From a bacterium (GTDB taxonomy: Bacteria; Patescibacteriota; Doudnabacteria; UBA920; VMFF01), in the NCBI GenBank assembly GCA_021811585.1, contig JAJZOG010000006.1, positions 1 to 32,595 on the forward strand: DNA of 32,595 bases. Reading direction: 5' to 3'. The position numbers were made by a program, and so were the translations under genes. The first letter of the stretch is position 1. Each line of letters starts with the position of its first letter. Below are positions 21,883-27,231 of the stretch, piece after piece. The notes beneath the pieces were generated by a model that was not told the DNA's origin, ran no database searches, and saw only the letters and a list, made by a program, of their open reading frames with translations.

Positions 21883-24408
21883 ATGCCTGATATCCAAACT
21901 ATTTCTTTTCCGGCCATAGACATGCTGTATTTGTCTTTGGCTGTGCTGCTGGCAATTTTTTGCACAGTATTTTTTTATTTTTGGCGCAGGCACAGAAAAT
22001 ATACCAAACGGCTGCTGCCGCGCGCCAGGGCCTCGGTTTTTCTGGAAATACAGATGCCCAAGGAAAACACGGATAAATCCGAGCAGTCGCCAAGAAGCGC
22101 TGAAGAGCGCAAAGGCCTAATCGCGGTTGCCGAACAAATTTATACGACAATCTCAAAAGCAGGCGAGCATAAAGGGCTTTTCGCCAATCATGATTTTATT
22201 TCTTTTGAAATCGCCGCGGTGAACAAAAAAATTTCTTTTTACATTAACTGCCCGCGCAACCTGCGGGATCTCATAGAAAAGCAGGTGCACGCGCAGTATC
22301 CGCAAGCATACATTGAAGAAGTCCGCGCCTACAATCCTTTCAGCGGCTATAGCGAACAATCTTCAGCCGAGCTGATTTTGAAAAAATCCTATTATTATCC
22401 CTTCCGCACTTACAAGGAGATGGAATCAGATCCGCTTAATGCCATTACCAATGCGATGTCCAAGCTTGATGAAGGGGAAGGAGCTGCGGTGCAGCTGGTT
22501 ATAAGCCAGGCGCCGGCAAAATGGGCGAAAAAACCGCGCCGTGTTGCCTTGGAAATTCAGCAAGGCAAAAATCCGGAAAACGTTGACAAGGGATTTTTTT
22601 CCGGGCTTGTTGACGAGGTTTTCAAATCCGACGCCAGTCCCGATAAAAAAGATTTGAGCGGCGAGAGAATGCCCATACATCTGACGCCCATGCAGCAGGA
22701 AATGGTTAAGCGCTTTGAGGAGAAGGCGAGCAGGCCGGGATTTAAATTTAATTTGCGGCTGATCGCGTCGTCAACTTCCAAGGAAGCGGCTGAAGCGCAC
22801 ATGAGCAACATGCTTTCGTCATTCATGCAGTATTCCATGGATCCTTTCAACGGCCTGAAAGTGAAAAAGAAAAACAGCGGGACCATTATAGTGGATTTCA
22901 TACTGCGCGCTTTTCATGATTACGGCAATTCGAATATCGTAAATACCGAAGAGCTTGCCAGCATTTGGCATTTGCCGACGCCTTTTATAGAGACGCCCAA
23001 CATAAAATGGCTGCTTTCAAAAAAAGCCCAGGCGCCTTTGGATGTGCCAAAAACCGGCGTGCTTTTGGGGCAAAATGTCTATCGCGGCGTGAAAACGGAA
23101 ATTCGCATTGCGCGCGACGACCGCCGCAGGCACATGTATATTATCGGGCGCACTGGAACCGGGAAGTCCCAATGGCTCTCAAACATGGCAATTCAGGATA
23201 TTAAAAACGGCGAGGGGCTTTGCGTGGTTGATCCGCACGGCGATCTTATTGAGGATATTCTGAAACAAGTGCCTGAATCGCGCGCAAAGGATGTTATTTT
23301 ATTCGAGCCCTTTGATACCGAGAGGCCCATGGGTCTGAACATGTTGGAAGTGAAAAGCGAGGAAGAAAAGGATTTTGCGGTTCAGGAAATGATTTCAATT
23401 TTTTACAAGCTGGTTACAGACCCATCGTTCCTTGGCCCGATGTTCGAGCATTATATGCGCAATGCCATGCTCACGCTTATGGCTGACAGCGAATACCCGG
23501 GAACCATCGCGGACATACCCAGGATTTTTACAGATACGGAATTTCAAAAATATAAATCAGCCAAAGTTGCCGATCCTGTTGTCCGCAATTTTTGGGAAAA
23601 GGAAATGGCAAAAACAACCGATTACCATAAATCGGAGATGCTCGGTTATTTAATTTCCAAGGTCGGCCGTTTTGTGGAAAATTCCATGATGCGCAACATC
23701 ATCGGACAGCCGAAATCGTCTTTTGATTTCCGCGAGGTAATGGACACTGGAAAAATTTTGCTTTTGAATCTGGCAAAAGGCAAAACAGGAGAGATTAATG
23801 CGAAGCTCATCGGCTTGATCATGGTTTCCAAATTGCAGATGGCGGCGCTTTCCCGTTCGAATATTCCCGAAAGCGAGCGCAAGGATTTTTATTTGTATGT
23901 CGATGAGTTTCAGAATTTTATCACCGATTCTTTTGCCACTATCCTTTCCGAAGCCCGCAAATACCGGCTTAACCTTGTTATTGCGCACCAATATCTGGGA
24001 CAGCTGGCCCAAGGCGCGGGCGCCCAGGGCGCTGCCACGAACGATTTGCGCGATGCGGTATTTGGCAATGCCGGAACAATGGCCTGCTTCCGCATTGGCG
24101 TTGAGGACAGTGAGGTCATGGCAAAAGAATTCGCCCCTATTTTTAATGAGTTTGATCTAATAAATATTGATCGTTTTAATGCTTATGTAAAATTGATGAT
24201 AAACGGCACTGCTTCCAAACCGTTTAATCTTGCTACCCCTCCGTTAATGATCGGCGGCTCTGTGGAGATTGCCAACAGGATACGCGATCTCTCCCGCGCA
24301 AAGTACGGGCGCTCAAAAGCGGAAGTTGAAGAATATTTGCTTAGGACAAGCCAAATAGGCGAACAATCCGCTGTTTCCGGGGGCATGGAAGAGGGCAGGG
24401 AATTATAA
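21883..24408 (+). CDS. Membrane-anchored VirD4/TraG-like (DUF87-type) ATPase
   Basis: N-terminal TM; Walker A GRTGTGKSQ; VVDPHGDLIEDIL; Walker B FYLYVDEFQNF; SEARKYRLNLVIAHQYLGQL. Confidence 0.88.
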   Translation: MPDIQTISFPAIDMLYLSLAVLLAIFCTVFFYFWRRHRKYTKRLLPRARASVFLEIQMPKENTDKSEQSPRSAEERKGLIAVAEQIYTTISKAGEHKGLFANHDFISFEIAAVNKKISFYINCPRNLRDLIEKQVHAQYPQAYIEEVRAYNPFSGYSEQSSAELILKKSYYYPFRTYKEMESDPLNAITNAMSKLDEGEGAAVQLVISQAPAKWAKKPRRVALEIQQGKNPENVDKGFFSGLVDEVFKSDASPDKKDLSGERMPIHLTPMQQEMVKRFEEKASRPGFKFNLRLIASSTSKEAAEAHMSNMLSSFMQYSMDPFNGLKVKKKNSGTIIVDFILRAFHDYGNSNIVNTEELASIWHLPTPFIETPNIKWLLSKKAQAPLDVPKTGVLLGQNVYRGVKTEIRIARDDRRRHMYIIGRTGTGKSQWLSNMAIQDIKNGEGLCVVDPHGDLIEDILKQVPESRAKDVILFEPFDTERPMGLNMLEVKSEEEKDFAVQEMISIFYKLVTDPSFLGPMFEHYMRNAMLTLMADSEYPGTIADIPRIFTDTEFQKYKSAKVADPVVRNFWEKEMAKTTDYHKSEMLGYLISKVGRFVENSMMRNIIGQPKSSFDFREVMDTGKILLLNLAKGKTGEINAKLIGLIMVSKLQMAALSRSNIPESERKDFYLYVDEFQNFITDSFATILSEARKYRLNLVIAHQYLGQLAQGAGAQGAATNDLRDAVFGNAGTMACFRIGVEDSEVMAKEFAPIFNEFDLINIDRFNAYVKLMINGTASKPFNLATPPLMIGGSVEIANRIRDLSRAKYGRSKAEVEEYLLRTSQIGEQSAVSGGMEEGREL

Positions 24409-25704: not shown

Positions 25705-27231
25705 ATGAGTTCATTGTATAGAAATTACCGGCCGCGGACTTTTTCCGAAGTGGTGGGCCAGGAGCACACAAAGCAAACCTTGCGAAACTCGGTGCAGGCC
25801 GGGTCTTTCGGGCATGCTTATTTGTTTTCAGGGCCGCGCGGCACAGGCAAAACATCGCTGGCGCGAATTTTGGCGCGTGCAATTAATTGCGAGAATCCGC
25901 AAAAAGGCGAGCCCTGCAACGGGTGCGATATTTGCCGGCAGTTTTTAAGCGGCACTGGTTTGGATTTGGTGGAGATTGATGCGGCTTCAAACACAGGAGT
26001 GGAGAATATCCGCGAGATCATTGAAAATTTAAAATTCAGCCCCACGCAGGCGAAATACAAAGTTTTTATAATAGACGAAGTGCACATGCTTTCCAAGGGA
26101 GCTTTTAACGCGCTACTCAAGACCTTGGAAGAGCCGCCAAAGCACGCGGTTTTCATTCTGGCAACAACCGAGGCGCACAAAATTCCGCTGACAGTGGTTT
26201 CGCGCACGCAGCGCTATGATTTCAGAAAAATAGAAAATGCTAAAATTTTCGAGCATCTTAAGTTTGTCGCCAAAAAAGAAAAAATCAAAATTGACGATGA
26301 AAGCTTGCAGTTGGTTGCCAATGCTTCCGAGGGGAGCTTGCGCGATGCGCTTTCGATTTTGGAAAAATTGTCGGCTTTCGGGGCAGTCGATTTGGCGCAA
26401 ACAGAACAGTTATTGGGAATAGTGAATGTTGCTGCTTGTCAGAAGTTGCTTGATTTGCTGGCGCAGAAGTCGGCGCGCGGCGCACTGGAATTCATCTCGA
26501 AAATATTTGCCGACGGCACTGATCCGATCCAGTTTAACAAGGATTTCCTGGAATACCTCCGCAAGGTTTTACTCGTCTCCATGGGCGGTGATTTTGCTTT
26601 TGCGCTGGATAAAACACAGCTGGCAGAGCTTGGGAAACAGGCAAAAAATATCCGCCCGGCACAGTTGCTCCACATTATTCGCCTGTTTCTGCGTGCAAAC
26701 AAGGATTTTCAAATAAGTCCGAGCGACGATTTGCCTATACAGATAGCTATTGCGGAAGCGTGCTTGGATACAAGCAGTGCGCCAAACCGCGGCGCTTCAA
26801 ACCAAAGCCAAACAGAAAACAATCCTCCCGAAACCGCTCAAAAAAAAAGCCCTGAAAGCGAAACCGTGGCAAACGAAAATATTTCCAAAGCGGAAGCGGA
26901 TGAATTTTCCGCCGCGCCCGTAAACGAGGACGCGGTGCTTGCCGCATGGCCCGCCATAATGGAGCAGATTAAAGAACAGAAGAGCACATTTTTCATAGTC
27001 ATGAAAAATGTTTCTGTTGCAAGCGCGCGCGGCAATATTTTGGAAATAAAATGCTCTTACAAATTCCACAAAGACAGCATTGATAAAAATAAAGAAGTAA
27101 TTGCCGGAATACTGCGCGAAAGGTTTGGCGCGAATTTCCGGATTAACGCCGTACTGGAAAAGAAAAAATCCGACGAGCTCGGAGATGCTTCCTCGCTGGC
27201 AGTGGAAATTTTCGGCAACGAAGCAGCGTAA
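25705..27231 (+). CDS. dnaX: DNA polymerase III subunit gamma/tau
   Basis: YRNYRPRTFSEVVGQEH, FSGPRGTGKTSLARILARA, CNGCDIC, IDAASNTGVENIREI, IIDEVHMLSKGAFNALLKTLEEPP, ASEGSLRDALSILEK. Confidence 0.97.
   Translation: MSSLYRNYRPRTFSEVVGQEHTKQTLRNSVQAGSFGHAYLFSGPRGTGKTSLARILARAINCENPQKGEPCNGCDICRQFLSGTGLDLVEIDAASNTGVENIREIIENLKFSPTQAKYKVFIIDEVHMLSKGAFNALLKTLEEPPKHAVFILATTEAHKIPLTVVSRTQRYDFRKIENAKIFEHLKFVAKKEKIKIDDESLQLVANASEGSLRDALSILEKLSAFGAVDLAQTEQLLGIVNVAACQKLLDLLAQKSARGALEFISKIFADGTDPIQFNKDFLEYLRKVLLVSMGGDFAFALDKTQLAELGKQAKNIRPAQLLHIIRLFLRANKDFQISPSDDLPIQIAIAEACLDTSSAPNRGASNQSQTENNPPETAQKKSPESETVANENISKAEADEFSAAPVNEDAVLAAWPAIMEQIKEQKSTFFIVMKNVSVASARGNILEIKCSYKFHKDSIDKNKEVIAGILRERFGANFRINAVLEKKKSDELGDASSLAVEIFGNEAA
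26839..26855 (+). promoter_or_regulatory. Candidate dnaX slippery site (A9 tract, -1-frame UGA)
   Basis: GCT CAA AAA AAA AGC CCT GAA in frame 0; -1 shift gives AAG CCC TGA. Confidence 0.55.

Follow-up and report, generated by a model that had tools for sequence, protein, structure and literature searches.

Does the run of nine adenines (A9) within the dnaX gene of this Doudnabacteria genome allow a single gene to encode two forms of its clamp-loader subunit and, if so, is it RNA polymerase or the ribosome that would slip? The tract lies in a window of 32,595 nucleotides (the whole stretch of DNA analysed), taken from a 748.7-kb assembly (G000) that contains a single full dnaX. Reading from the sequence, we consider it on balance probable that the tract is a site of transcriptional slippage like that of Thermus thermophilus dnaX, giving rise to both tau and a gamma-length DnaX.

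The dnaX gene and its predicted products

The gene product is identified as DnaX by the NCBIfam model TIGR02397 (E=4e-130, spanning residues 2–352) and by Pfam matches to DNA_pol3_delta2, DNAX_ATPase_lid, DNA_pol3_gamma3 and DnaX_C (404–489); its residues 4–352 match the E. coli gamma chain as found in the clamp-loader crystal structures 1jr3 and 1xxi. An AlphaFold2 model, built on a 42-sequence alignment, is mostly confident at residues 1–358 and 397–487, with pLDDT values below 50 at 359–396. MAGs labelled Candidatus Doudnabacteria are among the closest named relatives of the gene in the genome collection, at ~42% identity. The gene upstream of dnaX (window positions 21883–24408) specifies a protein of 841 aa in which there is a TrwB/TraG-like coupling ATPase domain of type IV secretion.

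Table 1. Features of the dnaX locus, in window coordinates
Feature	Position	Strand	Basis
dnaX, DNA polymerase III subunit tau/gamma, 508 aa	25705..27231	+	ORF; TIGR02397, PF13177, PF22608, PF12169, PF20964
Clamp-loader core (AAA+, lid, domain III), residues 1–352	25705..26760	+	Pfam/NCBIfam; PDB 1jr3/1xxi match; high pLDDT
Disordered linker, residues 359–396	26779..26892	+	AlphaFold2 pLDDT < 50; aligns poorly within class
Candidate A9 slippery tract, phase CAA AAA AAA AGC, codons 379–382	26840..26848	+	Sequence, motif search
UGA, -1 frame stop (A10 or A7 transcripts; 383 or 382 aa)	26853..26855	+	Translated length variants
UAA, other out-of-frame stop (A8 or A11 transcripts; 405/406 aa)	26921..26923	+	Translated length variants
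DnaX_C tau C-terminal domain (PF20964), residues 404–489	26914..27171	+	Pfam E=4e-6; model fold 408–506

Codon 379 starts at C26839, and the sequence agrees with the nine A residues that an earlier note on this DNA had placed at 26840–26848, read as CAA AAA AAA AGC; in the AlphaFold2 model they fall in the middle of the disordered linker. When transcripts with altered run lengths are simulated, the products come to 382 (A7), 405 (A8), 508 (A9), 383 (A10), 406 (A11) and 509 aa (A12), the A10 form thus reproducing the ~383 aa, instead of 508, that had been predicted for a -1 shift or one extra A. All of the non-triplet length variants keep the core (1–352) and lose DnaX_C, their out-of-frame products ending inside the linker or at its distal boundary; the truncation is located, as had been claimed, between the AAA+/clamp-loader region and the tau-like C-terminus.

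In the mechanism that we propose, RNA polymerase would slip at the nine A residues to generate a mixture of mRNAs with 8, 9, 10 or more A. Those carrying A9 or A12 would encode full-length tau, with other run lengths bringing in a stop inside the linker, or at its distal boundary, and hence yielding a DnaX of 382–406 aa; a gamma-length protein that should still be able to assemble a clamp loader, without the tau C-terminal domain. Three steps of this scheme are inferred: a useful rate of slippage at the tract, the build-up of the short protein, and its use by the cell.

The predicted stops depend on how UGA is decoded. The only tRNA-Trp among the 42 tRNA genes of the source genome has a CCA anticodon and TGA terminates 6 of the 21 window genes, so UGA is a normal stop here and its reassignment, raised in the earlier note, is ruled out. 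The closeness of the -1 stop is by itself ordinary, and there is no codon-level selection on the UGA: of the codon boundaries in the linkers of Patescibacteria dnaX genes, 43% have a -1 stop within ~5 codons, and synonymous shuffling of the source dnaX downstream of the A-run gave no excess of near -1 stops (P=0.17). On both counts we dropped the near stop as evidence of selection.

Homopolymers are error-prone. Replication slippage is also possible in such runs (PMC1088944), and an assembly artefact or DNA-level phase variation of the A-run might on these grounds be suspected. We regard either as very improbable: only nine (mod 3) A residues keep the 508-aa frame running into a recognisable DnaX_C, which argues against a homopolymer sequencing error, and an independent genome of the same family, G004, has a run of equal length at the same place.

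Transcriptional slippage or a ribosomal shift

The dnaX gene of T. thermophilus has nine sense-strand A residues within an intact tau ORF, with other run lengths stopping nearby to give gamma (PMC5009743, PMC1088944). Our gene resembles it in its sense-strand A9, its intact tau ORF, the gamma-length products of other run lengths, and in the provision of two tRNA-Lys; genes for both tRNA-Lys(UUU) and tRNA-Lys(CUU) are present in G000, a pairing linked in T. thermophilus with slippage rather than frameshifting (PMC5009743). It differs in that the tract is located 75% through the ORF as opposed to about seven-eighths, that the A8/A11 stop is 24 codons off rather than nearby, and that slippage here is a prediction from sequence.

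The known dnaX genes of Chlorobi type, in which two ORFs are joined at 7–10 A, are thought to use transcriptional realignment (Antonov et al. 2013, PMC3711429), and share with ours a poly-A tract between the core and the tau tail. There, however, the shift is required to make tau, and gamma comes from the zero frame (PMC3711429); here it is tau that the zero frame encodes.

A -1 programmed ribosomal frameshift of the E. coli type would instead take place on A_AAA_AAA and end at the UGA two codons on. The heptamer is indeed in phase, followed by AGC, with the -1 UGA at the required distance, and the likeness to E. coli dnaX (A_AAA_AAG) extends to the gene concerned, to a gamma core made without the tau tail and to a -1 stop very near the site. 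The A_AAA_AAG heptamer itself is absent, however; the run is A9 rather than A6G, the A-site codon is AAA not AAG, and A_AAA_AAA is the weaker site of the two (PMC5009743). Nor did we find a Shine-Dalgarno sequence in the 30 nt 5' of the tract, or a stem-loop adjoining it on the 3' side (60 nt, z=+0.84; 50 nt, z=0.02), both of which E. coli dnaX has; whilst the extra tRNA-Lys(CUU) also makes the genome less E. coli-like (PMC5009743). For want of a Shine-Dalgarno sequence and an adjoining hairpin we rejected an E. coli-type cassette, and these two absences, taken with the presence of both tRNA-Lys, make a ribosomal shift of this kind less likely. In the linkers of Patescibacteria dnaX genes, moreover, a near -1 stop accompanies 17/33 A7, 10/19 A8 and 8/8 A9 tracts, which, set against the 43% background, is little or no enrichment at A7 and A8; and the avoidance of A-runs in coding sequence (see below) starts at nine, not seven. 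Ribosomal frameshifting is, we believe, an improbable explanation for the tract. Saying this, there is a stronger fold farther 3' (100 nt, z=-1.74), and one relative, L085, has a fold adjoining its A-run (z=-2.63), so that a ribosomal contribution may exist, above all in L085.

Runs of nine adenines in coding sequence

A9 is rare in the source genome, with 14 tracts on the two strands together, and ~9 of these, dnaX included, are on the sense strand of plausible genes. The others, with gene names taken from reading the translations, are located in pyrG (codon 6), secD (codon 2), miaA (codons 213 and 300), ligA (112), trpS (193) and an O-antigen-ligase-like gene (186), these six being loci L137, L139, L140, L141, L144 and L145, and in one more gene. 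With ~8 other sense-strand examples, A9 is therefore not unique to dnaX in this genome; the nearest -1 stop in the set belongs to dnaX. In the same-family genome G003, a gene resembling that of another clamp-loader subunit, delta-prime (holB), carries an A9 at its codon 41 (L151).

Synonymous codon shuffling provides an expectation for such runs. In 93 other CDS of the source genome (those of the window apart from dnaX, together with loci surrounding tRNA genes) we see no run of nine or more A where 6.3 are expected, and 16 A8 against 11.2; in 281 CDS flanking dnaX in other Patescibacteria (drawn from loci L005–L263) the corresponding figures are 0 against 19.7, and 30 A8 against 27.5. Avoidance of A-runs in coding sequence sets in abruptly at nine, with A8 not avoided—a boundary that could guide searches for programmed slippage in uncultured bacteria towards the few A9 tracts that have escaped purging. 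Scarcity of runs of slippage-prone length elsewhere in the coding sequence, though no defining feature of the Thermus type, is what a slipping polymerase would lead one to expect.

The tract in related and distant dnaX genes

Within the family, G004 has just one A9 on either strand in 600 kb, and it lies in dnaX (G004:C4:8379-8387), at the linker position aligned with the source tract and with a -1 stop after 4 codons. The linker of G001 dnaX (L084, 59% identical to the source dnaX) has no A-run, and dnaX was not recovered from the same-family genomes G002 and G003. The class sample, made up of the same 49 genomes as the order, yields A9 in 4 of 43 dnaX genes (L001, L085, L098 and L113), positioned at codons 364–379 and in all cases followed by a -1 stop within 5 codons. 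Codon shuffling predicts 1.34 such linker tracts (4/400 shuffles), falling to 0.50 (0/400) when the stop within 5 codons is also required, and a uniform expectation from whole-genome A9 counts is 0.067; the class-level excess is modest, and its count includes the index gene. On the class tree the A9 label must have changed at least twice, by origin or by loss, and the A-runs of L001 and L085 are in differing codon phases. Conservation across close relatives, which the earlier note had proposed as a check, is thus partial, the A9 being present in two of three family members but absent from G001 and from 39 of the 43 class genes.

Extending the survey to 168 Patescibacteria dnaX genes, with the linker defined as residues 355–415, we count 8 linker A9 tracts where codon shuffling predicts 9.0, and 1 in the remainder of the same genes where it predicts 10.1; that 8 of 9 should be in the linker has a probability of about 6e-5 (2e-4 without the index gene). 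The linker count does not exceed the codon-shuffle expectation and so indicates only an absence of avoidance, an outcome to be expected of programmed and harmless tracts alike. Some members of the group (Portnoybacteria-, Yanofskybacteria-labelled and other genomes; loci L008, L042, L070, L164, L168, L241, L258, L259 and L261) have a gamma-length DnaX only, of 347–380 aa, so the short form is viable. No significant DnaX_C-like frame was found within 600 nt downstream of these short genes, where that much DNA was present, and we therefore rejected for them a reversed layout with tau made by frameshifting.

These counts bear on whether the tract might be a tolerated accident, A9 drifting into the linker as often as codon usage dictates without being purged, with no selected function for gamma. 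Slippage would on this account do little harm in the linker, and nowhere else in dnaX, since a shortened DnaX would remain functional as a subunit of the clamp loader; and the linker count at its expectation, the patchy distribution of A9, the lack of selection on the -1 stop, and the Patescibacteria with only a short DnaX and no tau domain detected downstream are all consistent with it. Against this are the class excess, a clear excess in other bacteria (see below) and the retention by G004 of A9 in dnaX only, and we judge such an accident to be rather unlikely.

Returning to slippage of the Thermus type, the comparative evidence for a slippage site is, we believe, moderate. The suggestion that the 'same trick' as in T. 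thermophilus or E. coli may work here accordingly divides in two: its Thermus-type part gains comparative support from G004, and from an avoidance of A9 that neighbouring genes show and the dnaX linker does not, whereas its E. coli-type part loses support on the features set out above. The source tract is probably a new example, in Patescibacteria, of known Thermus-type slippage. More tentatively, it is possible that Patescibacteria with minimal, A9-avoiding genomes recurrently build and use transcriptional slippage at the dnaX linker as a switch for the tau:gamma ratio, the switch having been both gained and lost independently in several families. Searches in a library of non-subscription papers found none joining the candidate phyla radiation with programmed ribosomal frameshifting, or Doudnabacteria with DNA polymerase III. 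If our reading is correct, a classic case of recoding would extend from Thermus to Patescibacteria, and even very reduced replication systems would make two forms of a clamp-loader subunit, by way of polymerase slippage.

Outside Patescibacteria, the linkers of 54 dnaX genes contain 12 runs of nine or more A as against 3.3 expected (0/400 shuffles), 11 of them with a near -1 stop; the set may include a few Patescibacteria among its unlabelled records (L048 has 2 of the 12 tracts, and L004 belongs to the class). Three Fibrobacter loci (L064, L066 and L080) carry A10 at codon 385, and linker runs of A9–A11 with near stops are found in Bacteroidota (L047, L069, L077, L078 and L079) and Neomarinimicrobiota (L081); the tracts of all three groups, enriched over the codon expectation and with stops nearby, are likely slippage cassettes. 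In Geobacter/Desulfuromonadales (L037, L049 and L056) an A9 with a near -1 stop is located late, at codons 530–542 of a 571–594-aa dnaX, where it would remove just the final 40–50 residues of DnaX.
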